From Pseudomonas sp. ICMP 561 (GTDB lineage Bacteria; Pseudomonadota; Gammaproteobacteria; Pseudomonadales; Pseudomonadaceae), in the NCBI RefSeq assembly GCF_002699985.1, contig NZ_LKBT01000001.1, forward strand, positions 248,001 through 312,000: a stretch of 64,000 nucleotides of DNA. The letters are read 5' to 3'. Under the pieces are notes generated by a model. That model had not been told where the DNA came from. It was given only the letters and a program-made list of their open reading frames with translations, and made no database searches. Below, piece by piece: positions 10,312-56,137 of this stretch; the first letter of the stretch is position 1; every line of letters starts with the position of its first letter. Made by a program: the position numbers and the translations under genes.

Positions 10312-10569
10312 TTAGCCTCTAAGCAATACTGCTAGTTCGTACTCCATATAGTCGGCCAGTCCAAGCCAATCCTGAGCCTGTTGACACGCCAGCATGGTCG
10401 TCAGCAACTGCACCCATTGCTGCTGCACACCGGGGGAGCGCTCATCAAGATGGCTGCCAGCACTTTCAAACACATCAATCATATCCAGCCCCGCCTCGAC
10501 GCTACGCCCCAAACGAAACAGACCGGCGCATGCGGTGCAGTGCGCGATACATTGCTCGACCGTCGTCAT
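10312..10569 (-). CDS. Small helical protein of unknown function in the glycosylation island
   Basis: An 85-residue acidic, helix-rich protein (MTTVEQCIAHCTACAGLFRLG...) that I do not recognise. Its ATG overlaps the stop codon of the upstream Maf-type gene by four bases (ATGA), so the two are translationally coupled and probably work together. Three cysteines lie near the N-terminus (C7, C11, C14), but there is no second cluster that would suggest metal binding. There is no signal peptide or membrane segment. Its position between the Maf gene and fliC suggests a role in flagellin modification or handling. That is inference from context only. Confidence 0.7.
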   Translation of the reverse strand: MTTVEQCIAHCTACAGLFRLGRSVEAGLDMIDVFESAGSHLDERSPGVQQQWVQLLTTMLACQQAQDWLGLADYMEYELAVLLRG

Positions 10570-11858
10570 TGCACGAACTCCTTATTAAAAGCTGTGCCAG
10601 CGATCATCGCCCCTGCCCGGCTGCTATTAAGGAACTGCACGTCAGGGTGCAGGTAGATATAGCGCTCCAGCTCGCCGAGATAGCGGCGGAAATTCAGTTG
10701 CGTCCTGACTCGCTGGCCATAACCGTCAAGCACCCATTGCCGGGCATGATCGATAGAAGGACCAAGAGTTCCGTCGGCCCACCCGGCATGGGTCTTGTTC
10801 ATCGGATAAGCGAAATCGGTACCGAACAGTGTCACCCGCGACGCCCCCATCTGCACGGCCAGATCCACCGCAGGATGAATCACGCTGCCGCCGCCGAACA
10901 ACTCGCCACGGCTAACGTGCTTGCGCAACTCATCATGTATCGAGCCTGGCGAATAACTGGCGTATCGCGGCCCTTCCCAGGCCTGGATCACCAGAGGGTC
11001 GCTCAAGGGCTTATAGACCAGCACGATTTCTGCCGAGTCAGCCGGTGGCAGGTGTGCAGTCGTGATCTTCTGATCAATGCTCACCACAAAGTCCGGCCTT
11101 ATGCCGTGGGCAAGCAGCGGTTTGTAGGCGGTGTCGACACAGATAAACAGTGGACGTTGCTCGCCCGCACGAATGCTCAGCAGCCTTTCAAAGTGCTGCT
11201 CAAGACTCGGCCCGGTGCCTATCACATACATTTCCCGGCTCACGTGCTGGCCGAACAGCTCGGTCACGTCCCGGTCGGAGCTGACCAGCTCAAGGTTCGC
11301 CAGCAAACGCTCAACGATGTGCGGCGCTTGCGGATCGAACTCACGATTATTGAAATGCAGATGGACTTCACTGACCAGTCGGTCCCGAATCCGCGCATTG
11401 ACCTCATCCGCCAGCTCCAGCTCGGCAGGCAATGCGAAGAACGGCAACTGAATCTCGCGGTCATCAGCGGCATAACCCAGCTCGACCCGAGGATCGCTGA
11501 GCCAGGACGTCTGATCAGCAAGCCTGAGCACCAGCGAGAACAAAGCCCCGTTGAGGATATGCACCTGCAAGCGCTGCAAGTCGGGCCGCTCCAGCAATAC
11601 CTGCTGCAGGTCGCCAAGCCCGGTGCCATATAAATGCAGCGGTGAGTTTTGAGCCGGCAGGCTGGCGGCCTGAAAGCGCGCCTCGGCGGTTCGGTCATGG
11701 CGACTGGTCAATTGTATGCCCGAGACACTCAGGGTCGCTTCAAGTCCATTAACCAGTTCGACCTGAAGCGCCTCGTAATCTTCATCCAGCAACCTGGCAA
11801 ACACCTGCGGCCAGCGATCCTGAAGCACCGCGGCATTTAACTGGAAGCTGTCATCCAT
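10566..11858 (-). CDS. Motility accessory factor (Maf/PseE-type, MptE-like DUF115 domain)
   Basis: 430 residues with the central DUF115/MptE-like fold seen in Maf flagellin glycosyltransferases: MYVIGTGPSLEQHFERLL (residues about 211-228), FICVDTAYKPLLAHGIRPDFVVSID, and ASRVTLFGTDFAYP. Maf proteins transfer nonulosonic acids or other sugars onto Ser/Thr of flagellin in the cytoplasm before export. No nonulosonic acid synthesis genes are visible in this window, so the donor sugar is unknown. GTGAGG precedes the ATG. Only 30 bp separate this start from the terminator hairpin of the upstream KASIII gene, leaving little room for a promoter. It is coupled to the downstream 85-residue gene. Confidence 0.82.
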   Translation of the reverse strand: MDDSFQLNAAVLQDRWPQVFARLLDEDYEALQVELVNGLEATLSVSGIQLTSRHDRTAEARFQAASLPAQNSPLHLYGTGLGDLQQVLLERPDLQRLQVHILNGALFSLVLRLADQTSWLSDPRVELGYAADDREIQLPFFALPAELELADEVNARIRDRLVSEVHLHFNNREFDPQAPHIVERLLANLELVSSDRDVTELFGQHVSREMYVIGTGPSLEQHFERLLSIRAGEQRPLFICVDTAYKPLLAHGIRPDFVVSIDQKITTAHLPPADSAEIVLVYKPLSDPLVIQAWEGPRYASYSPGSIHDELRKHVSRGELFGGGSVIHPAVDLAVQMGASRVTLFGTDFAYPMNKTHAGWADGTLGPSIDHARQWVLDGYGQRVRTQLNFRRYLGELERYIYLHPDVQFLNSSRAGAMIAGTAFNKEFVQ

Positions 11859-11881
11859 AAGACCTCACCCAAATTCCGGAC

Positions 11882-11925
11882 AAAAAAATAGCGCTCAAGA
11901 GTAACCGTCCTGAGCGCTATTTTTT
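11882..11925. terminator. Bidirectional-type terminator after the KASIII-like gene
   Basis: TAGCGCTCA (11889-11897) and TGAGCGCTA (11911-11919) form a perfect 9-bp stem, with A7 on one side and T6 on the other. On the minus strand it lies 20 bp past the KASIII-like stop codon and ends in seven T residues. Confidence 0.88.
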
Positions 11926-11939
11926 ACTGCAATATTCGA

Positions 11940-12866
11940 TCAGGGCCGATAAATGATCGCCGAGCCCCAGGACAAGCCAACGCCAAAACCGCTGAGCGCA
12001 ACGCGTTTCCAGCTGGCATCCAGCACATGCTTCTCAAGCAGCAATGGGATGCTGGAAGAAATGGTATTACCCGTTTCCAGCATGTCTTTGATGAATTTTT
12101 CCGGCTCGCCTTCAAAACGTCGCGCCACGGCATCGACAATCGCCGCGCTGCCTTGGTGAATGCAGAATGCGTCAATATCGCTTTGATCCAGATCCGACTC
12201 CTGCAACAACTCATGCAGGTGTGCAGGCACCTTGAGCAGTGCGAAGTTGAAGACCTGGCGGCCATTCATGAAAAACACGCCATTGCTGACTTTCAAGTGA
12301 GCGGCCCCGGAGCCGTCGGTACCGAACTTGGCCTTGCCCAATTGCCAGGGCGCGTCCTCGCCCATCCAGGTTGCAGTGGCGGCATCGCCAAACAGCATCG
12401 TGGTGTTGCGATCTTCCGGATCGACGATCTTCGAATAAGGATCGGCAGTGACCAGCAGACCGTTTTTCAGGCCTGCTGCTTCCATGAAACCTTTAAGTGC
12501 ATAAATGCCGTAAACATAACCGGAGCAGCCAAGGGATATGTCGAACGCTGCCACATTCGTTGGCAGGCCCAGTTTGTCCTGAACGATAGCGGCAGTGTGT
12601 GGCAAGCCTTCCTCGTCACCGTTCTGCGTGACAACAATCAGCGCATCGATGGACTCGCGTTTGAGGTCCGGATTATTGGCGAACAGGGCGTTGACTGCCT
12701 CGACGCACAGATCGGAGGTTTCCTGTGCATCATCCTTGCGCGGTAGAAAAGCGGAGCCGATCTTGCCAAGGATGAATTCGTCATCCTTGCCGAATTTCGC
12801 ACCCTGGGCGTAGTTGTCGACGCCAGCCAGAGGTACGTAACTCGCTATGCTTTTTATGCCAATCAT
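11940..12866 (-). CDS. 3-oxoacyl-ACP synthase III-like enzyme (FabH/KASIII family)
   Basis: A thiolase-fold condensing enzyme of 308 residues. The catalytic triad is visible: Cys114 (SLGCSGYVYG), His237 (CIHQGS) and Asn267 (ETGNTISSS). The start MIGIKSIASYVPLAG is chosen because GGGAAG lies 5 bp before it; an ATG one codon earlier has spacing that is too short. In P. syringae a KASIII homologue lies between fliC and flgL in the flagellin glycosylation locus, next to fgt genes. It probably makes or transfers an acyl group used on the glycan or its sugar, since housekeeping fatty-acid genes are absent here. It is flanked by a terminator downstream and a 312-bp non-coding stretch upstream. Confidence 0.88.
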   Translation of the reverse strand: MIGIKSIASYVPLAGVDNYAQGAKFGKDDEFILGKIGSAFLPRKDDAQETSDLCVEAVNALFANNPDLKRESIDALIVVTQNGDEEGLPHTAAIVQDKLGLPTNVAAFDISLGCSGYVYGIYALKGFMEAAGLKNGLLVTADPYSKIVDPEDRNTTMLFGDAATATWMGEDAPWQLGKAKFGTDGSGAAHLKVSNGVFFMNGRQVFNFALLKVPAHLHELLQESDLDQSDIDAFCIHQGSAAIVDAVARRFEGEPEKFIKDMLETGNTISSSIPLLLEKHVLDASWKRVALSGFGVGLSWGSAIIYRP

Positions 12867-13178
12867 CATGGCTTCCCAATATAAATAGCTGAATATCACC
12901 GTTTGCCCGATGACTCGGCATCGAAAACAAATGGCTTTTGACCCATGAAAAAAGAGCAGCGAAGGAGTTTGACCGGTCCCGGATTACCGTGAAATCAGCC
13001 TGACGCCATCATCGCCCGCGAGCACGATACAGTGAAGATGCGCGTTATGACTCATAGGTCACTAAGTTTTATACCCTTTTAGCGCATGGCATGACACTGT
13101 TGAGGGCTGTCATCGTGCAGGGATTCACTAAAAAACTTCAAGATGTCATGGAAGTTTGGGTTGGAATCTCTACGTCTT
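12867..13178. other. Non-coding stretch upstream of the KASIII-like gene
   Basis: 312 bp between the KASIII-like start and repeat element A. It should hold the promoter of the KASIII-like gene. I found no FliA or sigma-54 match on the minus strand, and no open frame that looks coding. Confidence 0.5.
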
Positions 13179-13919
13179 GTGTACTTATCCGTTGGCGGGG
13201 TAACGGCTGATATTGGTTGCGCATTTACAGCGCGTCACTTTTGGGGCCCAAAAGTAACCAAAAGGCCTTTACCCCACCCCTCGGCACCTCGCTGTCGCTC
13301 GGTGTACCCGCCCGCAGATCCTGAACCGTGGGCCGCCGCAACGGGCCATCCATGGCCCAATGCGGCTAACCCGGCGTCCTGCCGGGTTACCCACGGTTCA
13401 GAATCTGCGTTCGGCCAGCGTGGTTTAAGGGGGCGCCTCAGATCAACATCAAAAGCGCGGCGGCCTGACAGCCGACCTGATTGTGTGGGTTTGCCGGGCA
13501 TCTGTAGGAGCTGCCGAAGGCTGCGAAGCGGAGTGTCAGGCAACGAATGCGTTGGCTGTGATGACGTCTCGCGAACAAGTTCGCTCCTACCGGTCCGGGG
13601 TGAAACCGATGCTCTTGATCTGCTTTTGATTTTGATCTCAAGCGCCTCGTTAAACCACGCCGGCCGGAATTCGATATTGCTGTGTGGGGCAAACCGGCAG
13701 GGATGCCGGTTTAGCCGCCTCAGGCCATGGATGGCCGGTGGCGGCGGCCCCACGCAGCAATGTCGGATTACGGGTATGCCGAGCGACAGCGAGGCACCCA
13801 GTGGTGGGGCAAGAGCGTTTTGCTTACTTTTGTCTGGGCCGGCTTCCGGATGTTCAAAAGTGAGGCGCTGTAAAAGCGCAACCAATAGAAGCCATGACTA
13901 CGGTAACGGATATGTACAC
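13179..13919. repeat. Palindromic intergenic element A (~741 bp)
   Basis: Element ends are GTGTACTTATCC (left) and GGATATGTACAC (right). Long, interrupted inverted arms follow (TTGGTTGCGC...TTTACAGCGC...CACTTTTG on the left, the complement on the right). Inner arms include CGGCACCTCGCTGTCGCTCG against CGAGCGACAGCGAGG. The core (about 13,450-13,640) carries two REP-like segments, GTAGGAGCTGCCGAAGGCTG and GCGAACAAGTTCGCTCCTAC. A second, related copy lies at 34,866-35,647. Several open frames cross it in all directions, but they follow the palindrome and look non-coding. Confidence 0.9.
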
Positions 13920-13989
13920 CGAAGTGCGAGCAAACCAAGAAACATAAACGCCCCCACAAACATCGCAAGGGCGTCAGGACTCAGCAGAA

Positions 13990-16923
13990 CTAAACGAACA
14001 ACTGCGACCAGTTCACACCGCTCGGCTCACCCAGTGTGAACCCCTCCCCCGTCAACGACAGGTTCTTGTTGTAAGCCTGATCATGCTCGAATTGCCCAGC
14101 CCACTTACCCTTCAAAGTCGCAAGAGCCTGCGGCGCGTCCGGCAGAACACCCGAATGACAGATATGCGCCTGCGGCGTCCATACCGTCATGAAACCGAGC
14201 TGGCCAATGTTCAGACAAAGATCGACATCACTGAAGGCCTGCGCGAAATCACCTTCGTCAAAACCACCCACCTCATCAAACAGTTCCTTGCGCACCATCA
14301 GACACGCCGCCGAAACGGCCGAGTAGTTTTGCGTCACCTGCAGACGACGCATATAACCCGACTCCTCCGAATCCAGACCAATAAATGGCGAGCCCACACC
14401 GCCATTCAAGCCCAGGATCAAACCAGCCTGCGTGATCTTGCCCTCGGCATCCGTCAGCCTCGCACCCACTACCCCGACCTCGGGACGCTGGGCCTGATTG
14501 AGCAGGTTGCCTATCCAGTTCGGACCAACCACCTCACTGTCTGCGGCCAGCCATAACAGGTACTCGCCACGGGCCTGCGCGGCCATGGCATTGCACGACG
14601 CGGAAGGACTGAGCCCCGCCTCGACCTCAAGCACTCGCACCCGGCCGCCAGGCTGCTCCAGCTGACCCAGCCATTCCAGCATTTGCGGTGCCATGCCCTG
14701 ATGACTGGCCAGCAGCACTTCAAAACGCAGGTAGCGGGTGCGTTGCAAGATGCTGATCAGGCAGCGCTGGAGCCGCTCAAGCTCGACCTCGCCGTGCAGA
14801 ATGACGCTCACCAGTGGACGCTCGGTATGGCGATAGTCGATGTGATGGATACCATTGGCCTCGCACGTGACCTGCGCCTTATAGCCACGCGCACTCAAAT
14901 GGCGGGTCAATGCCAGTCGCTCTTGAGTATTTTCAGTAGTCGACGGCGTATCACAAATCATCAACGGCTCATCGAGATGAGCCAGCCAGCCCAGACCGCC
15001 TTGCTGGATAATTCTCAACAGCAGGTCGAATTCCAGAGCGTCGGTGAATTCAGCAGAGTAACCACCGGCCTCGATCAGCACATCACGACGGACCAGCCAG
15101 TGGCGAGCCATCAATGACGGAATGCTTTGCAGCAGATCCAGGTTGAAGCCTGGTCGGAAAATATCCCGCAACGCCCCGTTCGCCTGACGATGAATTTCGT
15201 CGGCGCAGACGGCGCGGCACTCGGGAGCGGCCAGCAACTCAAGGCCAGCCAGCAAAAGGCCGGCCGCTGTGAACTGGTCACCGGCTTCGGCCAGCATCAG
15301 CCAGTCCGTGGATAGCTGGCGAGCAATCTGGTTGAGTTTCTCGACATAGTTGTTCTGGGTGACTTTGACGAAGTGCAGCGTGCTGCCGAACGTCGTTGCA
15401 CTCGGCGGCTCATCCGTCGTGAACACCACCACCTTGAAGCCCTTGTAGAGACCTTCGACCAGGCTGTCGAGGGTGGTCTGCAACTTATGGATGTCGTTGT
15501 CGAGATTGAGTACCAACAGACCAAATTGCGGCGGAGCGCCCTTGGTCTTGAGATAGCGACCTATCGCCCCCTGCTCCTCGATACCTGGAGTACGGGCTGC
15601 CAGCCACTTCAGCAAGCGGCCAGATTGCATGCCGGCAAACGTCTGCTGGTTGTCATATTCATAAATCGAATCAAGACGCTCAGCCCAGGCGAGCATATCG
15701 CTCGAACGGTCATGTTCCTGATTAAGCTCGAGCTGCTGCGCCAGTTGTTTAATCACCCGACGGTTGAATGCGTTTAGGTGCATCGCATCCCACAGACGCG
15801 GGATCTGCGTCTCGGCGGTGTCATTGCCGCGAACGGTTAATAGCTCTTCCTGCAAGGCCCATATACCTTCCAGGGCTTCAAGCTGTACGCGCGCTGCTGG
15901 CATCGCATGCAGGAAGAATTCGATTTCGGTCAACTGGTCGAAAAATGCCTGGTTGTAATAGGGCATTTCCACATACTGCAGAGGACCAAAACGACGCTCC
16001 GGCCCATCCTCAGGGACGTTCCAGGTTGATTCAAAAATCAATTCGTTGGTCAGGGAGCGACGAGCAAGCAGGCATTGGCCCATCGCGGTAAAGCTATCCA
16101 CCACCACCTGGCGGCGCTGCTCAACGCTGAGGTCCTTCATGTCCGCGGGCAGTGACGCACAGAAATCAATAAACGCCTCACGCTCCCTGACAGATTGCTC
16201 ATCGGTAAACAGCAGGGAGTGAGACACTTCGGTCTTGTGCTCAGAAGTTCCGACGTTGATTTCCCGCACCACGTACGGTGCATTCAGAACTCGCGCCTTG
16301 GCAGAGGCCAACAGGAAATACGCATGGCCAATTTCCTGCCACTGCATCGAGGTATTTTCCGGCAGTGTGGCGTACCACTCCTTCAGTAGCGAAGTGCGGG
16401 TAACGGCATAGAAAGGCGGCACGAACTGCCCCATGAACTCGACAACACGTTCCTGGGCCAGATCAGAGCAGTAGTCTTCCTGAATCTTCTTGTCGCGACG
16501 GAAGTATTTGACGTGTTTACCCAAGGACGCATACATCAGGCAATAGCCGTGGCACATGCCGTAATCAGGGTTGTCGTGCAGGAAATCCACTGAAGCCTGC
16601 AACGTGTCGTGCAGGATGAAGTCGTCATCCGAGACAAATACCATGTAAGGCGTGGAAACCAGCGGAACGCCGTACACCAGCTTGGTCTGCAAGCCCCAAT
16701 AACCAAACTGCGGCAGGTGCTGATAGTCGATGTCGGCAACCGTTTGCGTCGGCAAATCCGTTGCTTTCTCGGCAGATGAGTCCAGTACCAGAATCCTGCA
16801 AGGCAGCGTCTGATAGTAGCGCAACGCCCGACGCAGAAAAGCCGGACGATTGTGACTGATGATCACCAGCGTAAGCTGTTCACTCAACGGCGGGCGATGG
16901 CTGGAAAGGTGCTGGCCTTGCAT
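13990..16923 (-). CDS. Large multidomain glycosyltransferase, Fgt2-like
   Basis: A 977-residue protein starting at ATG 16923 (MQGQHLSSHRPPLSE) with GGGGA 8 bp upstream; the longer frame would begin at TTG with no ribosome site. The N-terminal glycosyltransferase domain (about 15-250) has TLVIISHNRPAFLRRAL and an acidic metal-binding motif VFVSDDDFIL. A second GT-A-like region follows at about 485-690 (GLLVLNLDNDIHKLQ... FRPGFNLDLLQS). A third, GT2-type, spans about 720-940 (PLVSVILHGEVELERL... SDVDLCLNIGQLGF), in which the usual acidic triad is replaced by AADSE. It resembles the giant flagellin glycosyltransferases of P. syringae (Fgt proteins). It is the last gene of the sugar operon, 54 bp after the CmcI-like gene. 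Confidence 0.83.
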   Translation of the reverse strand: MQGQHLSSHRPPLSEQLTLVIISHNRPAFLRRALRYYQTLPCRILVLDSSAEKATDLPTQTVADIDYQHLPQFGYWGLQTKLVYGVPLVSTPYMVFVSDDDFILHDTLQASVDFLHDNPDYGMCHGYCLMYASLGKHVKYFRRDKKIQEDYCSDLAQERVVEFMGQFVPPFYAVTRTSLLKEWYATLPENTSMQWQEIGHAYFLLASAKARVLNAPYVVREINVGTSEHKTEVSHSLLFTDEQSVREREAFIDFCASLPADMKDLSVEQRRQVVVDSFTAMGQCLLARRSLTNELIFESTWNVPEDGPERRFGPLQYVEMPYYNQAFFDQLTEIEFFLHAMPAARVQLEALEGIWALQEELLTVRGNDTAETQIPRLWDAMHLNAFNRRVIKQLAQQLELNQEHDRSSDMLAWAERLDSIYEYDNQQTFAGMQSGRLLKWLAARTPGIEEQGAIGRYLKTKGAPPQFGLLVLNLDNDIHKLQTTLDSLVEGLYKGFKVVVFTTDEPPSATTFGSTLHFVKVTQNNYVEKLNQIARQLSTDWLMLAEAGDQFTAAGLLLAGLELLAAPECRAVCADEIHRQANGALRDIFRPGFNLDLLQSIPSLMARHWLVRRDVLIEAGGYSAEFTDALEFDLLLRIIQQGGLGWLAHLDEPLMICDTPSTTENTQERLALTRHLSARGYKAQVTCEANGIHHIDYRHTERPLVSVILHGEVELERLQRCLISILQRTRYLRFEVLLASHQGMAPQMLEWLGQLEQPGGRVRVLEVEAGLSPSASCNAMAAQARGEYLLWLAADSEVVGPNWIGNLLNQAQRPEVGVVGARLTDAEGKITQAGLILGLNGGVGSPFIGLDSEESGYMRRLQVTQNYSAVSAACLMVRKELFDEVGGFDEGDFAQAFSDVDLCLNIGQLGFMTVWTPQAHICHSGVLPDAPQALATLKGKWAGQFEHDQAYNKNLSLTGEGFTLGEPSGVNWSQLFV

Positions 16924-16977
16924 AAATAGTCCCCGTGCAACAGGCGATAAAGGATTCAATGACTTTGCATTCAACGA

Positions 16978-17712
16978 TTAGCGGACACGACGCAGATAGC
17001 CGTCCATCGCCACGGTGATCAGCAATTTGTTGTGAATCGATTCGTCGATCACAAAATCGGCGTTTTCCTTGAGGTAGGCCCATACGGCGGTCTTCGGGTT
17101 ATCGCCTTTGCCCCATGGGCGATCCGGGAACGCGTCCTCGGGCATGTCTTCCACCACCGTATCCATCACCACGCAATAGCTGTCCACGGAAACCAGCGGG
17201 GAATAAAGACGCAACTCTTCAAGCACGTGCTCGTGAGTGTGATTGGAGTCCAGCACCACGATGACTTTCTTGCCCGCCGCGATAGCACGCACTTGCTCGG
17301 CAGTCGCCGGATCAATGCTGGAGGCCTCGATCATCTGGATACGCTTGCTCATCGGGTGGCTTTCAATGGCCTCGCGGTTGTGCGGGCGAATATCACGGTC
17401 GATACCCAGCACTTCGCCATGCCCCTGCAGCTCAAGCAGGGAAGCGTAATAGATGATAGAACCGCCATGAGCGATGCCGCATTCGATGACCAGATCCGGC
17501 TTGATGCGCCAGATCAGTTCCTGCATCGCCATCATGTCTTGAGGCAACTGAATGATCGGGCGCCCCATCCAGGAAAAGTGATAGGTGTATTTGTGCCGGG
17601 CCGACTCGTTGTAGAACTCTTGGGCAAGGGCCTTGAGCTTCTGGTCCTGGCCCTGGTCGTTGACTTGCTCGTCGCATTCACGCTGGAATACTTGCAGTGC
17701 TGTATCCGTCAT
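16978..17712 (-). CDS. CmcI-family (cephalosporin hydroxylase-like) SAM-dependent methyltransferase
   Basis: 244 residues from MTDTALQVFQREC. Family hallmarks are LVIECGIAHGGSIIYYASLL (SAM-binding loop, about residues 70-90), GEVLGIDRDIRPHNR, and VIVVLDSNHTHEHVLEEL. Despite the name, members of this family in sugar clusters are thought to be O-methyltransferases, for example on rhamnosyl residues. Here it probably methylates a sugar hydroxyl of the flagellin glycan. The start is placed at the ATG with GAGAACAG upstream; the longer frame adds a hydrophobic stretch without a ribosome site. The gap to the upstream reductase gene is about 110 bp. Confidence 0.82.
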   Translation of the reverse strand: MTDTALQVFQRECDEQVNDQGQDQKLKALAQEFYNESARHKYTYHFSWMGRPIIQLPQDMMAMQELIWRIKPDLVIECGIAHGGSIIYYASLLELQGHGEVLGIDRDIRPHNREAIESHPMSKRIQMIEASSIDPATAEQVRAIAAGKKVIVVLDSNHTHEHVLEELRLYSPLVSVDSYCVVMDTVVEDMPEDAFPDRPWGKGDNPKTAVWAYLKENADFVIDESIHNKLLITVAMDGYLRRVR

Positions 17713-17821
17713 TTTTCTGTTCTCGATAAAGATAAGTTGAACCAATAGCCAAAGGCCTTGCGAGAAAAATCTTGCCAATGTGCCGACGCGAACCGGCGCG
17801 CATGGTGGCGCTCAACAGCAG

Positions 17822-18694
17822 TTATTCAGCGCCCTGCCGCCCTTCACTCAAGAGTCCCAGCAGCCGCTTGTTGTCACCCCAGAACGCCATGGGTTCATGG
17901 GGGGAATAACCGTAATGCCCCAGATTCAAATGCAACGAGCCCCCTCTCTCCCGCAACCGCTGCTCGACCAGCGCCCGAACCGAGATCGGCTGACCGCTGG
18001 CGCAATTGACGACGCCCGAGAAATCCCGGCAGTGCAGCACGCCGACAAGATTGTCGGCAGCCACTTCAATCGCGAGATAGTCCCGCAACTGGTCACCCGC
18101 CGACATGTTGAAGGAGCTGTCACCGGCATCGATCGACCGGTCAAGGCTGGCCAGCAGACTGTTGCTGTTTTGCCCCTCACCATGCAGATAGAACAGGCGA
18201 ACCCATTGCAGCGTGAAAGCCTGCTGCCGCTGCAAACTTTCCAGAAACAGACGCAAGGTGTTTTTAGCAAGGCCGTAGGGATTGGTCGGCTGAGCCACGG
18301 CGTTTTCATCCAGGGCACCACTTTGCATGCCGTACTCGAAGCAGGTGCCCGTCACCATCACCTGACCGACACCGGCCTCAACGACAGCTTTGATAAAGCG
18401 GTAGTCCGCGAACAGGTTCTGCTCGAAATGAAACAAACCCTGGTAGTTAGGCAGGCCTGGCCAGGCCAGATGCACGAGGGCATCGATACCCTTGGTAAGC
18501 GCCGCCACATTGAGATCATCAGCGTGAATATCCGCGCTGACGAACTCGACGTCTTTTATCCACGGCATGCTTTGTGCGACCTGAGCATTGCGGGCAACGG
18601 CGCGGACACGGCAGCCTTTGTTCAGCAAAGCGCTGACAACATGGCGGCCGACAAACCCGGTCGCCCCCGTGACCAGTACATGCAAGCCCGTCAC
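17822..18694 (-). CDS. NAD-dependent epimerase/dehydratase (probable 4-keto-sugar reductase)
   Basis: An extended short-chain dehydrogenase of 290 residues. It has the Rossmann motif VLVTGATGFVGRHVV at the N-terminus, a Tyr-x3-Lys active site in NPYGLAKNTL and the preceding TGTCFEYG segment. The start is a GTG that overlaps the stop of the upstream C-methyltransferase (GTGA), indicating tight coupling; upstream codons belong to the neighbour's reading space. In nucleotide-deoxysugar pathways such an enzyme usually performs the final C-4 keto reduction or an epimerisation, which fits its place after the dehydratase, epimerase and methyltransferase. The exact substrate is inferred. Confidence 0.82.
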   Translation of the reverse strand: MTGLHVLVTGATGFVGRHVVSALLNKGCRVRAVARNAQVAQSMPWIKDVEFVSADIHADDLNVAALTKGIDALVHLAWPGLPNYQGLFHFEQNLFADYRFIKAVVEAGVGQVMVTGTCFEYGMQSGALDENAVAQPTNPYGLAKNTLRLFLESLQRQQAFTLQWVRLFYLHGEGQNSNSLLASLDRSIDAGDSSFNMSAGDQLRDYLAIEVAADNLVGVLHCRDFSGVVNCASGQPISVRALVEQRLRERGGSLHLNLGHYGYSPHEPMAFWGDNKRLLGLLSEGRQGAE

Positions 18695-19917
18695 AGGACT
18701 TTCAACTCTGGAATAGCCACGACAAAACGCCCTCCCCAACTGTTCACACCCGCGAACTGCCCGGTGATCTCATCGATCAGATTCCAGGGCAGCACTAATA
18801 CGTAATCAGGCTTTTCCAGCGCGATACGCTCAGGCTCGACCACCGGAATGCGACTGCCCGGCAGGAACTTGCCTTGCTTGTGTGGGCTGGCGTCAGCGAC
18901 CCACGCCAACAGATCGGGCTTGATGCCCGCGTAGTTGAGCAGGGTGTTGCCCTTGGCCGCCGCGCCGTAGCCGACCACGCGCTTGCCATCGGCCTTGGCC
19001 TGCAGCAGGAAGCGCAGCAACTCATGCTTGATACGCTCGGCAGCCGGAGCGAGGCTGGTATAGAACTGCGCGGTTTTCACCCCAGCGTTCAACTCGGCCT
19101 CAAGTACACGCTGCACAGCGGGCATCTGATCATGCTGTCCACCGTCGGCGCGCTGCACGAAGACCCGAAGCGAGCCGCCATGAGTGGGCAGTTCACTGAC
19201 GTCGAACACGCTCAGGCCATTACGCTCGCACAGGGTCTGCACCGCAGTGAGCGAGAGGTAGGAATAGTGCTCGTGATACAGCGTATCGAATTGCGCACCT
19301 GCCATTAACGTCAGCAGATGAGGAAACTCGAAAGTTGCCACGCCGCCGGGTTTGAGCAAGGTGGCGAAACCGCTCAGGAAATCATTGATGTCCGGTACAT
19401 GGGCCAACACGTTGTTGGCGGCCATCAAGTCAGCAGCCCAGCCCTGCTCCAACAACTGCGAAGCGCTCTCACGGCCAAAAAACAGCTCGCGAATCTCCAG
19501 GCCTTTGGCCCGCGCTGCCTGCGCTGTGCTGTGGGTCGGCTCGACCCCCAGACAGGCAATCCCGCGTCGGGCTACATACTGCAACAGGTAACCATCGTTG
19601 GCCGCGACTTCCACGACCCGGCTCTGCTCATTCAAGCCAAAACGCTCGACCATGGTCGCCACGTAGTGCTCGGCATGCTCCAGCCAGGTACTGGAAAAAG
19701 AACTGAAGTAAGCGTAATCGGCATCAAACAGGCTGTCGGCCCGCGTGTAGTCCTCGGTCTGCACCAGCCAGCAGGATTGGCAGACCTGAACTTTCAGCGG
19801 CACCCACTGCTCGGCGCTGTCCAGTTGCTCTGCCCGCAGGTAGGCGTTGGAAGGCGGCGATGTCCCCAGATCAATCAGCGGCAGGCTCAAAGCTGCACCG
19901 CACCCACGGCAATTCAT
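18691..19917 (-). CDS. Deoxysugar C-methyltransferase (TylC3/NovU type)
   Basis: 408 residues with the three-part structure of sugar C-methyltransferases. There is an N-terminal zinc-binding region (CRGCGAAL and, about 45 residues on, CQSCWLVQ). A SAM-binding domain carries VVEVAANDGYLLQYV near residue 100 and the conserved FDTLYHEHYSYLS active-site segment. The C-terminal Methyltransf_14 domain has VVGYGAAAKGNTLLNYAGI. Known members add a methyl to C-3 or C-5 of 4-keto-6-deoxy sugars. Together with the CDP-sugar genes beside it, this predicts a branched-chain deoxysugar. It overlaps rfbC upstream (ATGA) and the reductase downstream (GTGA). Confidence 0.9.
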   Translation of the reverse strand: MNCRGCGAALSLPLIDLGTSPPSNAYLRAEQLDSAEQWVPLKVQVCQSCWLVQTEDYTRADSLFDADYAYFSSFSSTWLEHAEHYVATMVERFGLNEQSRVVEVAANDGYLLQYVARRGIACLGVEPTHSTAQAARAKGLEIRELFFGRESASQLLEQGWAADLMAANNVLAHVPDINDFLSGFATLLKPGGVATFEFPHLLTLMAGAQFDTLYHEHYSYLSLTAVQTLCERNGLSVFDVSELPTHGGSLRVFVQRADGGQHDQMPAVQRVLEAELNAGVKTAQFYTSLAPAAERIKHELLRFLLQAKADGKRVVGYGAAAKGNTLLNYAGIKPDLLAWVADASPHKQGKFLPGSRIPVVEPERIALEKPDYVLVLPWNLIDEITGQFAGVNSWGGRFVVAIPELKVL

Positions 19918-20474
19918 AAACGCACTCCGGCGAATTGGGCATCCAGCAAGGGATGCGAAAGATCTCTTTCCGACAGATTCTTGACGGGCAGCGGCCAGGG
20001 GATACTCAGGCGCGGGTCGTGCACGCTGAGCCCACCTTCGTGACCCGGCGTGTAATCGGCGCTGTGCAAATAAAGCAATTCGGCGTCGTCGGTCACGGCC
20101 TGAAAGCCATGGGCGAAACCGGCCGGCAGCAGCAGGCTGCGACCGTCACCCGCTCGCAGGTATTCGGCATGCCAGTGCAGGAAGGTCGCCGAATCGGGAC
20201 GCAGATCGACCGCGACATCCCAGACTTCACCCCGCAGACAGCTGATCAGCTTGGCTTCAGGCAGGCTGGCATTCTGATAATGCAGGCCGCGCACGGTCCC
20301 GCGCTCACGCGTACAGGAATGATTGATCTGACGGATATGAAACGGCTGGCCAAACTGGCTCAGGCTGCCTTCGCAAAACAGTCTGGAGAAATGCCCGCGC
20401 TCATCGGCATGGTATTTATGTTGAACGCTGAACAACCCTTCCAGCGGCAACGCATGCAACATGAACTCGCTCAA
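19914..20474 (-). CDS. rfbC: dTDP-4-dehydrorhamnose 3,5-epimerase family protein
   Basis: A cupin-fold sugar epimerase of 186 residues. The family motif with the catalytic histidine is VRGLHYQ (His65). Substrate-binding segments CLRGEVWDVAVDLR and LLLPAGFAHGFQ are present, and a tyrosine region (ELLYLHSADYTPGHEGG) follows. It should epimerise C-3 and/or C-5 of a 4-keto-6-deoxyhexose. As the neighbours make CDP-4-keto-6-deoxyglucose, the substrate here is probably CDP-linked rather than dTDP-linked. It overlaps both neighbours by four bases (ATGA). The symbol follows the family and does not imply rhamnose synthesis. Confidence 0.88.
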   Translation of the reverse strand: MSEFMLHALPLEGLFSVQHKYHADERGHFSRLFCEGSLSQFGQPFHIRQINHSCTRERGTVRGLHYQNASLPEAKLISCLRGEVWDVAVDLRPDSATFLHWHAEYLRAGDGRSLLLPAGFAHGFQAVTDDAELLYLHSADYTPGHEGGLSVHDPRLSIPWPLPVKNLSERDLSHPLLDAQFAGVRL

Positions 20475-21553
20475 TGCGACCCCCGATATAGATTCAATTG
20501 AGTGAGGGTCACTTCACGCATGTCTTTGCCAGCCTTCCATGCCAGGTGCCAGTCCAGCGTCTGCTCCAGACATTGCTGCAACGACCAGCGAGGTTTCCAG
20601 CCCAGGATCTGCCGGGCACGGCTGCTATCCAGGCGCAAGAGACCGGCTTCATGCAAATCACTGGGCTCTATACGCAAGCCGGGGGCTTGAGGCCAGCGAC
20701 GGGCAAGCAGTTCGACCACTTCGCCCACGCTGCACATGTCTGCTTCACCAGGACCAAAGTTCCAGGCACCGGCAAACTCCGGGCCTTGCTGATACAACCC
20801 GGCCGCCAGTAAAAGATAGCCAGCCAAAGGCTCCAGCGCGTGCTGCCAGGGGCGAACCGCCTGCGGGTAACGCAGGGTTACCGGCTCACTGGCAGACCAG
20901 GCCTTGAGTACATCGGGAATCAGGCGCTCCGGTGCAAAATCGCCACCGCCCAGCACGTTACCTGCACGGGCAGTGGCCAGCGCCAGGCCGTGCTCGGCGT
21001 AACGTTCTGCCGGAAAAAAAGAAGCCGCGTAAGACTGGGCCAGCAACTCGCAACAGGCCTTGCTGCTGCTATAAGGATCATGCCCGCCCAGCGGCTCGTT
21101 CTCGCGGTACGGCCAGAGCCATTCCTGATTGGCGTAGACCTTGTCGGTGGTGACCAGCACGCAAGCGCGGACGCCGCCAACCTGGCGAATGGCTTCGAGC
21201 ACGTTGAGCGTGCCCATGACGTTGCTTGAATAGGTCCCCAGAGGATCGCGATACGCTTCACGCACCAGCGGTTGCGCAGCGAGATGCAGAACGATTTCCG
21301 GCTGGGTCTCGGCAATGATTTCCAGCAGAGCACCCAGATCACGTAGATCACCGCGCTGGTCATTGATGCCCTCGGCAACCCCGGCCAGCTCGAACAGGCT
21401 TGGATCGGTGCCAGGCTCAAGGGCAAAGCCAGTGACGTTGGCGCCCATGCTTTTCAGCCACAAAGCCAGCCAACTGCCTTTGAACCCCGTGTGACCGGTC
21501 AACAGAACGCGCTTGCCGCTCCAGAACTGCGAACTCAGCCCCACTGCTTCCAT
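20471..21553 (-). CDS. rfbG: CDP-glucose 4,6-dehydratase
   Basis: Converts CDP-glucose to CDP-4-keto-6-deoxyglucose. 360 residues from [22 protein letters not shown] lies just before this ATG. The NAD-binding motif is [18 protein letters not shown], the substrate region [13 protein letters not shown], the catalytic Thr/Asp/Lys segment [11 protein letters not shown], and Tyr-x3-Lys is in [11 protein letters not shown]. The [13 protein letters not shown] segment is typical of RfbG. The start lies inside the last 19 bp of rfbF. It sits between the cytidylyltransferase and the 3,5-epimerase in pathway order. Confidence 0.94.
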
Positions 21554-22308
21554 GGGGCCTCCCCGCTCTGCCACAGTTGCTCCAGGTGATTCTTGTCACG
21601 CAGGGTGTCCATGGGGTGCCAGAAACCGTCGTGCTGGAAAGCCTTCAATTCACCCCGCGCGGCGAGCCCAATAAGGGGTTCGGCTTCCCAGGTGGTATCG
21701 TCCCCGGGGATCAGCGGCAACACTTTGGGTGACAACACAAAGAAGCCACCGTTGATCCAGCCGCCATCACCACGAGGCTTTTCAGAGAAACCGAGCACCA
21801 GGTCGCCGTCGCGCTCCAGAGCGCCATAACGTCCTGGCGGCTGCACAGCAGTTACTGTCGCGAGCTTCTTGTGAGAGAGATGAAAGTCCACCAAGGCGCT
21901 GATATTGAGATCGGAAACACCGTCGCCGTAGGTGAAGCAAAAGGCTTCTTCGTTTTCCAGATAGCGGCTGGCACGGCGCAGGCGCCCACCGGTCATGGTC
22001 TCCTCACCGGTATCGATCAGGGTCACGCGCCAGGGCTCGCTGTAGTTCTGATGAACGTCCATGCGGTTGTTGCACATGTCGAAGGTGACGTCAGAGGTAT
22101 GCAGGAAATAGTTGGCGAAGAAGTCCTTGATCGCGTAGCCCTTGTAGCCCAGACAAATCACGAAGTCGTTGATGCCGTGAGCGGAGTACTGCTTCATGAT
22201 GTGCCAGAGAATTGGCTTTCCGCCGATTTCGATCATCGGCTTGGGCTTGAGATGCGACTCTTCGCTGATCCTTGTACCCAGCCCACCGGCCAGAATTACT
22301 GCCTTCAT
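21535..22308 (-). CDS. rfbF: Glucose-1-phosphate cytidylyltransferase
   Basis: Makes CDP-glucose from CTP and glucose-1-phosphate, the first step of the CDP-deoxysugar pathway. 257 residues, the usual size. The nucleotidyltransferase signature [18 protein letters not shown] and [19 protein letters not shown] lie at the N-terminus, and the metal-binding [10 protein letters not shown] is near residue 125. GAGGGG is placed about 7 bp before the ATG. It is the first gene of the sugar operon, which runs from 22,308 to 13,990. A 200-bp gap separates it from the upstream glycosyltransferase and probably contains the operon promoter; I saw no FliA or sigma-54 match there. Confidence 0.94.
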
Positions 22309-22508
22309 CTCATCCCCTCTTCCACTTCACAGGGCCCCGTCAAGCTTTCGGGGGCTTTGCAAACCATCTGGACAAACCGTCAACGCTACCGGGATAGCGC
22401 TCATCGGCTGGCGCAAATACACGTTTTATGACGATATAGAGGGGAATATGCAGGAAGCGCGCCAGCCTGGATTGCCCAGGCCAGCGTCATAAGATCATGC
22501 GGGAGGTT

Positions 22509-25500
22509 TTAATCGGCAAACCAGCCGTTGACCCAATGCTCGAGATTGTCGCCACGCAGAACGAAGTCCCGGAGCACCATCTCTCGTAGCTGGTCACCCA
22601 TACGATAGCTGGCCTCAGGGTCAGCGAGATGCATACGAATAGCCTCCAGCCATTCCTGGGTGCTGTTGCTCTTCACCCGAGTGCAAGGCAGATAACCACG
22701 ATAGGCGGCGGTGTCGGTACACACCACCGGATACCCGCAAGCGCCGTACTCAAGCAGCCGAAGATTACTTTTGCAGTCGTTGAAGATGTGGAACTCCAGT
22801 GGTGCCAGCGCCAGGTCAAGGTTCAGGCTGGCCAGTTTGGCCGGGTAGGCATCCAGGCCGATAACGCCGTGGAACTCGTGGATATAAGGACGCAACTCAT
22901 CGGGGCACATGCCGAAGAACACCCACTCCACTTCGTCAGCCAACTCGCGAACAACCTCGGCAATAATCTCCAGGTCACCGCTGTGACTGGTACCGCCGCC
23001 CCAACCCACCCGCGGCTTTTTGGAAGTCCGGCGCCGGCTGTGTAGATTGCTCCACATGGACGCGTCAAGCATGTTCGGCACTACCCGAATATCGTTATGC
23101 ATGCTCGACAGCGCATCGGCCAACGACTCGGTGGTGACCACTACGCGATCACACAGACCAATTGCACGGCGCACCATACGCTCCATTTCTTCCCGCTCGG
23201 GCTTGTTGCGGGCATGCAGGTTTTTCTTCGTGGACTGTATGACGTAGTCATCAATTTCATAGATGCGCCGCGCCCTGGAGTAAGTTTTCATAGGCTCGAT
23301 TTCCTTGATCGTACCTTCACTGTAGCGACATTGAAGGATGATCACGTCCGGATCCAGCCGCGCCAGTTCGATCGTCGACGGTGCGGAGTAGTAAACCTGT
23401 CCTGTCGCCCTGCCTGCGGCCTGCAGCTCGGCCAGTGGCTGAATCACCCGGTAATGGCCAACGGCGCCGGAGTTGATAGGTATCGCAGCAACGACGGGCA
23501 GCGTCTTGCGCACGAACGGACGCCAACCGGTAGTCAAGCCAGGGTCGAGACCAAAACTGCCGCCACCCAAGGTATTAAGCGACAGGTTTACGTTATAAGC
23601 CGGGTCCCGGGCAATGATAGGCAACCAACGCTTGTAGTAAGTCGTCGTCTCTACCGCTTTGCGCTGTTCCAGCCCGGCATCGACAGTTGCTGGTCGGTTG
23701 CCCAACGCCAGTTGAGCGTAAGGCGTCCAGACCACCAGATAACCTTTCTGGCGAATTCGCAAACAGAGGTCCACGTCGCCAAGGGTGCTGGTAAAGCTCA
23801 GCTCATCCAGCCCGCCTACCTCATCAAATACCTGCTTGCGCACCAGCAGACAGTCAGCCCCGACCGCACTGAGATCATGGGCAACCTGCAAACGATGCAT
23901 GTAACCCGCCGCATGACCGGCGCCCCCATTAAATGCTGAATTTGCCGGACCATGGAGCCCAAGGATCAACCCGGCGTGCACGACACCGCCGGAGGGATTG
24001 AACAGCTTCGCCCCTACGATCGCCACTTCAGGACGCTGTCCGTGATTGAGCAACTCATCGAGCCAGTCAGATTCGGTCACCACCGAAAAACAGTTGAGCA
24101 TCAACAGGTAATCGCCCCGGGCATGCTCGGCAGCAAAATTGTACAGAGCAGCAGTGTTGCCCTGCTCCGGGTAACTCAACACGCGCAACTTGTCACTGCC
24201 TAACTGCGCCATGGCCTCCAGCCAGGCCAGGGTGCCAGGTTGCTCGCTGCCGTTGTCCACCAGCAACAACTCGTATTCGGTGTAGGCCGTTTTTTCCAGC
24301 AGACTTTCTGCACAGCGCTGCAAGGCCGCTATCTGATCCTTGCAGGTGATGATGATCGACACCAGCGGGCGCTCTGCGTGCTGGTAATCGATCCGGTTGA
24401 TCAGCGGCATTCTGCCCTGGCGCAGATCATGTGCAACCCCCAGACGCTGAAGGTGCGCGCGCAGTACGGCAGGGTTCTGCTCGACGACTTCTGGCCGGGC
24501 AAGCCAGCCGGCGAGGCCCAAGGGTGCCTCCACCAGAATATCGCTGACATGCTCCACCACGTGGGTACCATGAGTTTCCACCAGACGCCAGAGCACATCG
24601 TGAGGCGCCAACTCCCCAAAGCCCCCATCGAAGCCACCGACGGCAAGGAACTGCTCGCGGTTAAAGGCCAGCGTTCGACCCACGTAAGGATAACTGCGCA
24701 GCAGATCCAGGTTGAAATCGGGCTTAAAGATCGGGTCTACAGACTCAGTGTCACGAAGCCCGCCTTCATCACTGTACAGACACAAGACATCGGCAAAAGC
24801 GACAATCCGCTCGGCCATCACCAACAATGCTGGCGCGATAACCCGGTCGCCCGCCTGCAACAGATAAAACCAGTCCGCGCCCTGCAACTGCCCCAACACC
24901 TCATTGAGCTGTTGTTGCCAGTTGGCTTGCAACGGCATGCGCAGTGTATTGCCCTCCAGCAGCGTCTCGGTACAGCTGCGGGAAAGTACCAGCGCCAGAT
25001 GCGGTGGATAATTTTGCGCATCCAGGCTTTGCAAGGTCACCGCAAGGTCGCCACCTGTGACCTGATCATCGATGATTACTGGAACGATTTTGGGCTGCCA
25101 GGACCAGCCGTCGAGGGTCTCTGGCAAGAGGTTTTGCTGCACCTCGGAGAGGGAGCGGCACGCCAGCCATTGTTCATAAAGCTCGGAAAAGCTCTGCGCC
25201 TTGGTGCCGACCCGCCAGGGAAGCGTGCTTTGCCGGGTCCCCATGGAACGACCGAGGCAGATCTCTTCCCAGACACGCGGGGCCTCGTCGGCCCGCTTTA
25301 GTGGTAAATAACGAACCCAGCCATGCGCCGGTGCCGACTCTCCGCTGCGCCCTTTGAGCATTTGCCGCAACCAGTCGCGCTCAACCCGCACGGCGTCCTT
25401 CACTGACGGCTGAGCGCTCAAGCGATCCTGGTACAGCCGCTCAACGCTGAGGATATCGTTGAGCAGCACCAGGTTGCCACGGCGCAAGAGGCAAATATAC

Positions 25501-26102
25501 AAAGCAAAATCCAGACTCGCGACAAAGCAATGATCCGGCTGGGTCAGGGCGGGCAGCAGCTCCTGAATATCGGCGCGACGAAACAACGTACTGCTGAACC
25601 CCCCCAGGAAATTGGCCGGATAGGACTCGATAATCGCCAGCAGATCATCGCCCTTGAGAATCGAACTTTCCGGACAAATCACGTCATTTTCCAGACGCTG
25701 CGGAAGCACTATGTTGTCTGCATCCCAGAGCATTCGCTGCGCGGTAACCAGGCTTGCATCGGAGTGCTCAATCAGCGCATTGGCCTGAATCTCGATGCAG
25801 CCGGGAAACAACAAATCGTCGTCGCAGAAAAACTTGATGAACTCGCCCTGAGCCTCATTGAGGCAGACCTGCAGATTACCCGTCAGGCCAAGATGCTCGG
25901 CATTACGCACGTAGCGCAGGCTGACGCTCGCGGCATCGCTCAACGAATCGAAGATGGCCTTGATTTCGCTGCCACGACTGTCATCACAGACGATGACTTC
26001 AAGATTGGAATACGTCTGGTGCAGGGCACTGACCAGTGCAGCGTTGAAAAAGCGCGGGTTGTAGGCGGGGATGACGATACTGACGAGAGGAGCTGGATTC
26101 AC
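22509..26102 (-). CDS. Giant three-domain glycosyltransferase, Fgt1-like
   Basis: 1,197 residues. Domain 1 (1-240) is a GT2 enzyme: VSIVIPAYNPRFFNAAL and the metal-binding FFCDDDLLFPG. Domain 2 (about 590-830) is a second GT2: VSIIITCKDQIAALQRC, LLLVDNGSEQPGT and LGDVDLCLRIRQKGY. Domain 3 (about 880-1190) is a GT-B, group 1 type: VPNMLDASMW, RVGWGGGTSHSGDLE, and LRLLEYGACGYPVVCTD. The length and order match the flagellin glycosyltransferase Fgt1 of P. syringae, whose gene lies by flgL. The frame opens with GTG at 26,102; no ATG or strong ribosome site lies upstream. It starts 105 bp after the flgL stop. Confidence 0.85.
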   Translation of the reverse strand: MNPAPLVSIVIPAYNPRFFNAALVSALHQTYSNLEVIVCDDSRGSEIKAIFDSLSDAASVSLRYVRNAEHLGLTGNLQVCLNEAQGEFIKFFCDDDLLFPGCIEIQANALIEHSDASLVTAQRMLWDADNIVLPQRLENDVICPESSILKGDDLLAIIESYPANFLGGFSSTLFRRADIQELLPALTQPDHCFVASLDFALYICLLRRGNLVLLNDILSVERLYQDRLSAQPSVKDAVRVERDWLRQMLKGRSGESAPAHGWVRYLPLKRADEAPRVWEEICLGRSMGTRQSTLPWRVGTKAQSFSELYEQWLACRSLSEVQQNLLPETLDGWSWQPKIVPVIIDDQVTGGDLAVTLQSLDAQNYPPHLALVLSRSCTETLLEGNTLRMPLQANWQQQLNEVLGQLQGADWFYLLQAGDRVIAPALLVMAERIVAFADVLCLYSDEGGLRDTESVDPIFKPDFNLDLLRSYPYVGRTLAFNREQFLAVGGFDGGFGELAPHDVLWRLVETHGTHVVEHVSDILVEAPLGLAGWLARPEVVEQNPAVLRAHLQRLGVAHDLRQGRMPLINRIDYQHAERPLVSIIITCKDQIAALQRCAESLLEKTAYTEYELLLVDNGSEQPGTLAWLEAMAQLGSDKLRVLSYPEQGNTAALYNFAAEHARGDYLLMLNCFSVVTESDWLDELLNHGQRPEVAIVGAKLFNPSGGVVHAGLILGLHGPANSAFNGGAGHAAGYMHRLQVAHDLSAVGADCLLVRKQVFDEVGGLDELSFTSTLGDVDLCLRIRQKGYLVVWTPYAQLALGNRPATVDAGLEQRKAVETTTYYKRWLPIIARDPAYNVNLSLNTLGGGSFGLDPGLTTGWRPFVRKTLPVVAAIPINSGAVGHYRVIQPLAELQAAGRATGQVYYSAPSTIELARLDPDVIILQCRYSEGTIKEIEPMKTYSRARRIYEIDDYVIQSTKKNLHARNKPEREEMERMVRRAIGLCDRVVVTTESLADALSSMHNDIRVVPNMLDASMWSNLHSRRRTSKKPRVGWGGGTSHSGDLEIIAEVVRELADEVEWVFFGMCPDELRPYIHEFHGVIGLDAYPAKLASLNLDLALAPLEFHIFNDCKSNLRLLEYGACGYPVVCTDTAAYRGYLPCTRVKSNSTQEWLEAIRMHLADPEASYRMGDQLREMVLRDFVLRGDNLEHWVNGWFAD

Positions 26103-56029: not shown

Positions 56030-56137
56030 ATGAGCTACGAGAACATCAAAAAGGCTCTTTCACGTTCTGCTCCAAGAAGTCCGGCGTGTGCTCATCTTCT
56101 AAAGTTTCCATACCCGCAATACAACGCACGAATTTAA
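56030..56137 (+). pseudogene. Possible 5' fragment of a phage gene
   Basis: A strong ribosome site (TAAGGAGG) directly precedes ATG at 56,030. The first residues, MSYENIKKAL, look like the start of a phage minor tail protein. After about 12 codons the frame becomes the antisense of the OLD-nuclease gene and ends at 56,137. This suggests a phage gene cut by insertion of the OLD-nuclease segment near 56,045. The call rests on the ribosome site and a very short match. Confidence 0.4.

Follow-up and report, generated by a model that had tools for sequence, protein, structure and literature searches.

In Pseudomonas syringae, two glycosyltransferase genes, fgt1 and fgt2, are located upstream of the flagellin gene fliC (PMC3927599, PMC3402453). 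According to these reports, the flagellin glycan consists of a rhamnosyl core that ends in a 2-O-methylated 4,6-dideoxy sugar, and the transfer of rhamnose to serine is attributed to Fgt1 (PMC3927599). One P. syringae pathovar is reported to depend on flagellin glycosylation for its virulence (PMC3927599); in another, glycosylation is required for swarming and dispensable for virulence after entry (PMC3402453). A different flagellin glycan is therefore worth knowing. Flagellin glycosylation islands as such are well established, and a cytidine diphosphate (CDP)-linked sugar has been predicted in one before: according to PMC4875605, the enterobacterial island of type 23, reported in four strains, encodes the synthesis of CDP-4-keto-6-deoxy-D-glucose. 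Here, we describe a six-gene cassette between flgL and fliC in a 64,000-nucleotide stretch of Pseudomonas sp. ICMP 561 (in the following, “the window” refers to this whole stretch). On balance, it is probable that the cassette makes a CDP-linked, C-methylated and O-methylated 6-deoxyhexose, most likely of the vinelose type, and that the N-terminal domain of the adjacent glycosyltransferase gtB adds this sugar to the flagellin glycan.

The cassette and its slot in the flagellin island

The genes of the island lie on the minus strand of the window and are described from flgL towards fliC. The cassette starts with rfbF (21535..22308), encoding a glucose-1-phosphate cytidylyltransferase, and rfbG (20471..21574), encoding a CDP-glucose 4,6-dehydratase. 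With 458.8 and 472.8 bits, respectively, both proteins exceed the curated cut-offs of the CDP-specific NCBIfam models TIGR02623 (300.25) and TIGR02622 (278.45), a combination taken to indicate a CDP-6-deoxyhexose pathway. RfbG is the only CDP-glucose dehydratase over cut-off in its genome. Next come an RmlC-like 3- and/or 5-epimerase (19914..20474; PF00908, 183.2 bits) and a sugar C-methyltransferase, most likely of the 3-C type (18691..19917), in which a zinc-binding, an S-adenosylmethionine (SAM) and a C-terminal domain follow each other (PF08421, PF13489 and PF08484). The last two genes encode a predicted 4-ketoreductase of the short-chain dehydrogenase/reductase (SDR) type (17822..18694; PF01370, 95.8 bits) and a member of the CmcI/rhamnosyl O-methyltransferase family (16978..17778, with a possible alternative ATG start at 17712), which reaches 310.6 bits on PF04989 (cut-off 23.2) and is the sole copy of this family in the genome. 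Overlaps of four bases join rfbG to the epimerase gene, the latter to the C-methyltransferase gene, and this in turn to the reductase gene, whose GTG start (18694-18692) overlaps the C-methyltransferase stop. The cassette is flanked by gtA (22509..26102) and gtB (13990..16974), so that glycosyltransferase genes stand between flgL and fliC as in other Pseudomonas flagellin glycosylation islands.

An earlier, sequence-only reading had listed these six genes in the same order, pointed out the GTG-coupled reductase and noted that no aminotransferase was present. Open reading frames (ORFs) and family models confirm the list and its order, the coupled start is as described, and no aminotransferase was found in the window island. 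Within the region it covered, gtA, gtB and three further genes (see below) had been left out. Its interpretation of the gene order as a biosynthetic pathway is in agreement with the gene identities, their order and the flagellin context, the sugar itself being a prediction. In this pathway, RfbF would convert glucose-1-phosphate into CDP-glucose and RfbG would convert the latter into a 4-keto-6-deoxy sugar, which the RmlC-like enzyme would epimerise at C5 and/or C3. The SAM-dependent C-methyltransferase would then add a methyl group at C3, next to the 4-ketone, the SDR would reduce C4, and the CmcI-family enzyme would methylate an oxygen, probably O2. The product of gtA, which occupies the fgt1 position, is expected to put rhamnose on serine first, like P. 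syringae Fgt1, before the N-terminal domain of gtB would add the CDP-sugar. Each enzymatic step, the stereochemistry of the sugar, the position of the O-methyl group and the acceptor are predicted from sequence.

To describe the distribution of the cassette, the C-methyltransferase was called at an E-value of 1e-60 or better in 298 sampled Pseudomonas genomes. It is present in 91 of them including the genome analysed here, i.e. in over a quarter. Stretches of up to 20 kb around the gene were fetched for the 90 other carriers. Unless a family is named, BLAST comparison with the window proteins served to identify flagellar genes, gtA, gtB and the cassette genes in these and other relatives. Window-type copies (77–84% identical) account for 84 carriers and distant copies (53–54%) for six. 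All 84 window-type loci hold rfbF and rfbG, 83 the epimerase, 81 a PF04989-like O-methyltransferase and 79 gtB; the first four cassette genes are found in constant order in 83, and all six genes, the window-type reductase included, in 59. This recurrence shows that the cassette has not come together by chance. At least one of the flagellar genes flgL, flgK, fliC, flaG and fliD was matched in 75 of the 84 stretches, or in 71 if at least one fifth of the protein must be covered, and the stretches without a match stop before or at the expected flagellar position. Wherever both transferases are visible, the cassette is located between gtA and gtB (70 of 70 loci). Eleven near relatives without this C-methyltransferase show gtA and gtB adjoining in four cases, a variant cassette in one, and neither transferase between flgL and fliC in six. 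In 27 loci without the cassette, chosen for having gtA and gtB, the two genes are separated by at most 546 bases, and by at most 191 in 26 of them. As gtA and gtB adjoin in relatives that lack the cassette, it can be said to sit in a slot between the two transferases.

The slot itself has other occupants. Four loci (L245, L270, L275 and L276) carry a variant cassette without the window-type C-methyltransferase, in which a weakly similar methyltransferase follows the reductase; in L245, this protein has 355 amino acids, with PF13489 and a weak PF08484 tail. In L254, L256, L257 and L258, which belong to the 27 loci without the cassette, an rfbF-like gene (70–75% identity) lies downstream of gtB, hinting at another CDP-sugar set. 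In L163, the cassette is partly replaced: the C-methyltransferase is present, searches for the epimerase, the reductase and the O-methyltransferase gave no match, and pseB and pseC are located behind gtB. PF04989 is matched in 98 of the 298 Pseudomonas genomes, namely in 86 with the C-methyltransferase, four with the variant cassette and eight others. An argument built on P. syringae VioM as a PF04989 protein was dropped, as this census does not establish it.

Beyond Pseudomonas, a scan of named genomes retrieved 474 relatives, 80 of which were kept as loci. These include rfbF in 72 cases, rfbG and the epimerase in 76 each, and the O-methyltransferase in 56. A flagellin match within 10 kb was found in 21 of the 80 loci (19 if at least 30% of the flagellin must be covered), among them loci of Achromobacter, Curvibacter, Rhodoferax and Simplicispira; a binomial estimate for the 21 of 80 treats the loci as independent and uses a chosen background rate of 0.9%. 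A tree of 110 proteins was calculated, with 28 of the 90 Pseudomonas copies and 79 of the 80 named loci (L025 was omitted, being the same gene as L020). Here, 23 window-type Pseudomonas rows, the window included, form one fully supported group, while the flagellar label changes at least five times among the other rows by supported branches. Given that the front genes also occur in non-flagellar loci and that the label changes repeatedly, the front module, i.e. the first four genes, is general for surface sugars and, judged from the tree, has been taken into flagellin loci several times.

The same distribution bears on the possibility that the cassette sugar is destined for a different surface polysaccharide, for instance O-antigen, with its proximity to flagellin being accidental. 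No flagellin is seen in the available stretch of 59 of the 80 named loci, some of these stretches being short, and for five of the six distant Pseudomonas copies, no flagellar gene was matched within roughly 20 kb. Against this stand the single clade of the sampled window-type copies, their invariable position between gtA and gtB where both are visible, an N-terminal gtB domain that changes along with the cassette (see below), and the lack of a second CDP-glucose dehydratase over cut-off in the genome. A use in polysaccharide synthesis thus appears very unlikely for the window-type cassette, and O-antigen, which the sequence-only reading had named as an outcome that would overturn it, finds no support. 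A swimming screen in P. protegens Pf-5 was considered and was of no help; it discusses rfbG as an O-antigen gene (PMC11004494).

Covariation of gtB and exchange of the C4 enzymes

The 994-residue gtB product, in the fgt2 position, features a TIGR04440 domain at residues 33-238 (125.7 bits, cut-off 70) and a PF00535 domain at residues 729-902. We compared gtB in three pieces, with residues 1-330 as the N-terminal piece, and used the N-terminal identity to the window protein minus that of the rest as a measure. All three pieces are present in 78 of the 84 loci with the cassette and in all 27 loci without it. For the 78 loci, the difference ranges from -9.6 to 7.1 points with a median of -0.8; for the 27 loci, it ranges from -21.8 to -11.0 with a median of -18.7. 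The two distributions do not overlap (Mann-Whitney p 1.2e-14, calculated for loci that are not independent of each other). Two loci without the cassette, L273 and L274, reach N-terminal identities (49% and 47%) that fall within or close to the range of the cassette carriers, and are separated by the difference measure only. The four loci with the variant cassette group with the carriers (-2.3 to 7.9). For gtA, no such step was observed between loci with and without the cassette. Because it follows the cassette without overlap, the N-terminal domain of gtB is the best candidate for the CDP-sugar transferase, and it is likely this domain that adds the CDP-sugar.

A second exchange concerns the gene after the C-methyltransferase. 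When types are called at more than 50% identity to the window reductase or to the aminotransferase of locus L135, a window-type reductase is found in 60 of the 84 window-type loci, a DegT aminotransferase together with an acyltransferase in 19, and another gene in five; reductase and aminotransferase never occur together (0 of 84). The pair in L135 scores 403 bits on PF01041 and 162.8 bits on TIGR03570 (NeuD/PglB/VioB; cut-off 160.8). Both C4 enzyme families act on a 4-ketone by known family chemistry. With two mutually exclusive 4-ketone enzymes behind them, the first four enzymes most likely yield a CDP-4-keto-6-deoxy-C-methyl hexose, which would represent the shared intermediate of both branches. 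In quick trees, the C4 type changes at least five times on the C-methyltransferase tree and twice on the O-methyltransferase tree. In view of these numbers, the genes for C4 modification and O-methylation appear to be exchanged as a unit, i.e. the reductase or the aminotransferase would travel with the O-methyltransferase behind a fixed front.

The predicted sugar and the Azotobacter vinelandii parallel

By sequence, the epimerase is a relative of RmlC, the dTDP-L-rhamnose (deoxythymidine diphosphate-L-rhamnose) 3,5-epimerase, although it stays below the equivalog cut-off (TIGR01221, 139 vs 155.75 bits). The RmlC catalytic tyrosine was considered as a mark of 3- vs 5-epimerases and dropped, a tyrosine one place further on being common to several RmlC proteins. 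The C-methyltransferase aligns nearly end to end with PDB entries 5t64, 4rv9 and 3ndi, which are solved sugar 3-C-methyltransferases, and most likely acts at C3. Sequence does not distinguish 3-C from 5-C methylation, nor epimerisation at C3 from that at C5. A CDP-linked 5-C-methyl sugar resembling noviose therefore has to be weighed, formed by a NovW-type 3-epimerase and a NovU-type 5-C-methyltransferase with subsequent reduction and O-methylation. The gene types and their order match NovW, NovU and NovS plus an O-methyltransferase, and the epimerase has NovW (2c0z) among its best PDB matches (E 5.3e-30). Yet NovW is one of several near-equal matches, the PDB entries that the C-methyltransferase matches over a long stretch are named or known as 3-C enzymes (a weak argument, with no 5-C structure such as NovU among them), and the A. 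vinelandii parallel discussed below points to 3-C by the chemistry of vinelose. We consider the 5-C alternative improbable and continue with methylation at C3.

Vinelose is 6-deoxy-3-C-methyl-2-O-methyl-L-talose. Okuda, Suzuki and Suzuki reportedly isolated CDP-vinelose from A. vinelandii strain O (J Biol Chem, 1967-68). To our knowledge, it has since been an orphan sugar nucleotide, with genes never assigned and no known role. No paper containing the word vinelose was found in the literature searched, a search outside which most subscription journals lie. According to PMC4465626 and PMC3675510, CA (OP) represents a strain O variant, and both O and OP are flagellated.

The genome of A. vinelandii CA (NC_021149.1), which belongs to the same family as the window organism and has two AnfG/VnfG matches, shows the gene types expected for CDP-vinelose in one cluster. 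Their order is rfbF, rfbG, epimerase, C-methyltransferase, an acyltransferase-like ORF, SDR and CmcI-family O-methyltransferase, with further genes behind, namely a PhyH-type protein, a TylF-like methyltransferase, a glycosyltransferase and fliC; the C-methyltransferase is located about 8 kb from fliC. Identities to the window proteins are 74% for rfbF, 50% for rfbG, 55% for the epimerase, 61% for the C-methyltransferase and 50% for the O-methyltransferase. The cluster contains the sole CDP-glucose dehydratase over cut-off and the sole such C-methyltransferase of the genome. Since CDP-glucose dehydratase is required for making a CDP-6-deoxy sugar, the cluster becomes the candidate if strain O makes CDP-vinelose. 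Three of the four Azotobacter genomes covered have a flagellin, and two of these three have the C-methyltransferase; the genome without flagellin lacks it.

Several observations weigh against the assignment of the window sugar as vinelose-type. The cassette is known here from its genes, and the parallel depends on the reported isolation of CDP-vinelose from A. vinelandii. The SDR of A. vinelandii gives no BLAST match to the window SDR at 1e-4, and the acyltransferase-like ORF and the PhyH-type and TylF-like proteins are extra to its cluster, so that its final sugar may differ from that of the window. The window C-methyltransferase is 57–65% identical to the named loci, and the A. vinelandii copy is no nearer than many non-flagellar ones. 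In the O-methyltransferase tree, the aminotransferase-type locus L209 sits on a very long branch. Finally, the window O-methyltransferase misses the rhamnosyl O-methyltransferase equivalog NF045824 by far (107.1 vs 400 bits), and the O2 position is predicted from the activity of the PF04989 member Rv2959c.

These points lead to the question whether the sugar is C-methylated but not vinelose-like, either because its configuration differs (virenose- or evalose-like) or because the O-methyl group is placed elsewhere, or on rhamnose after transfer. Some PF04989 enzymes act on the rhamnose of completed glycolipids, and the C3/C5 outcome of the epimerase leaves room for other configurations. Conversely, the O-methyltransferase is exchanged together with the C4 enzymes, which fits its acting on the same sugar. 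Such a product is regarded as rather unlikely, albeit less so than the 5-C-methyl sugar, and the vinelose-type assignment is retained. Going one step further, CDP-vinelose may be a flagellin donor and a vinelose-type coat may be common to A. vinelandii and more than a quarter of Pseudomonas species, attached by an exchangeable transferase domain and switched at C4, in the course of evolution, between hydroxyl and acylamino. This extension is offered tentatively, as a conjecture that could well fail. We know of no 4-amino vinelose described so far.

Neighbouring features and comparison with known systems

The island is bordered upstream by flgL (26207..27823), a 538-residue ORF identified by its sequence and its place before flgK (27838-29883). 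gtA encodes a 1197-residue multidomain glycosyltransferase with two PF00535 domains and weak C-terminal GT1/GT4-like matches. At the other end, fliC (9215..10066; PF00669 and PF00700) encodes a flagellin of 283 residues, with the start taken at MALSVNT, that is the likely acceptor. The genes missing from the sequence-only reading besides gtA and gtB are a KAS III-like gene (11940..12899; PF08541 and PF08545), a Maf-like gene (10566..11858; PF01973) and an ORF of 85 residues coupled to the latter (10312..10569), which has no Pfam match. The KAS III-like gene is present in islands with and without the cassette: it was found in 21 of 38 genomes searched, the own genome included, and matched in 19 of the 27 loci without the cassette. 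About 1.1 kb between gtB and this gene contain no convincing gene. This gap holds an imperfect inverted pair of 740 bp (13179-13919) with main arms 81–87% complementary, whose left half is matched 55 times in the genome, its own copy counted, and many of these matches form inverted pairs about 460 bp apart; a further copy is located at 34866-35144. Promoter searches gave sigma-54 sites near chance (17 found vs 17.3 expected) and sigma-70-like promoters below chance (2 found vs 6.3 expected). Elsewhere in the window, an OLD-family ATPase/TOPRIM gene (56046-58169; Pfam and PADLOC matches) with a low G + C content of 44%, near a tRNA-Arg gene (60506-60582), is perhaps an acquired defence gene.

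The Maf-like gene, adjacent to flagellin and possibly encoding a pseudaminic acid transferase, reaches 120 bits on PF01973 (cut-off 34.6) and 41.1 on the NCBIfam PseD model (cut-off 670). A relative of the 85-residue ORF stands with Maf in all 12 loci showing Maf. There are no pse genes local to the Maf-like gene; a complete pseBCFGHI set, with all six genes over cut-offs, is found about 142 kb beyond the end of the window (L249:9069-14646, corresponding to G000:C1:454068-459645). The surrounding region (C1:445000-480000), at a distance of about 185 kb from the cassette, resembles a surface-polysaccharide cluster, judged from ORF translations and a family scan of the pse genes only. Locus L243, from a different Pseudomonas, has pseF and pseG grouped with a Maf-like gene in the island. 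Together with the complete pse set, the Maf-like gene suggests that pseudaminic acid may be a second, unrelated flagellin modification.

Compared with P. syringae, the window island is similar in the position of its two transferases. It differs in that the CDP-sugar cassette lies between them, a C-methyltransferase is present and an aminotransferase is not, whereas the viosamine genes of P. syringae are dTDP-based (dTDP-mVio) and located in a separate island. Rhamnose and Fgt-type transferases probably continue to contribute to the glycan. When the six glycosylated serines of P. syringae flagellin are compared, unaligned, with the window fliC product, serine occurs at two of the six positions; this comparison says little and, if anything, speaks against a conserved site pattern. 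For P. syringae pv. syringae B728a, glycan residues of 203, 160 and 146 Da are reported (PMC3927599); the 160 Da residue, a methylated deoxyhexose, is a possible comparison for the window pathway.

With respect to the enterobacterial type 23 islands (PMC4875605), the claim of the sequence-only reading that a CDP-based branched sugar would make a different flagellin glycan holds for the predicted C-methyl branch and not for the CDP-sugar as such; “C-methyl” is absent from the main text of that report. No earlier account of a C-methyl flagellin cassette was found among the matches listed in the literature searched, with most subscription journals outside that search. New are the C-methyl branch and how widely it occurs in Pseudomonas, the exchange of the C4 enzymes, a transferase domain that covaries with the cassette, and the connection to vinelose. 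If this reading is correct, a common and so far unnamed Pseudomonas flagellin sugar obtains a name, and the glycan emerges as modular: a constant front that makes a branched 4-keto sugar is combined with an exchangeable C4/O-methyl end and with a transferase domain that changes alongside it. Exact mass predictions for flagellin glycopeptides follow from this reading.

Yersiniose, which the sequence-only reading had suggested for comparison, proved a poor model. It originates from CDP-4-keto-6-deoxy-glucose as well, and its two-carbon branch is formed by a thiamine enzyme; no thiamine-enzyme Pfam domain is found among the six cassette proteins, in which the branch would be a methyl group from a SAM enzyme. 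The D-mycarose 3-C-methyltransferase (4rv9), TcaB9 (3ndi) and 5t64 share the architecture of the window C-methyltransferase over nearly the full length. They act on dTDP-sugars of antibiotics, whereas the substrate in the flagellin island is predicted to be a CDP-sugar that keeps O2. In the case of CDP-vinelose, the A. vinelandii cluster differs by its extra genes and its SDR; still, the six window genes likewise predict a CDP-linked 6-deoxy-3-C-methyl-2-O-methyl sugar, which, if true, would provide genes and a biological role for a sugar nucleotide reportedly isolated over half a century ago.

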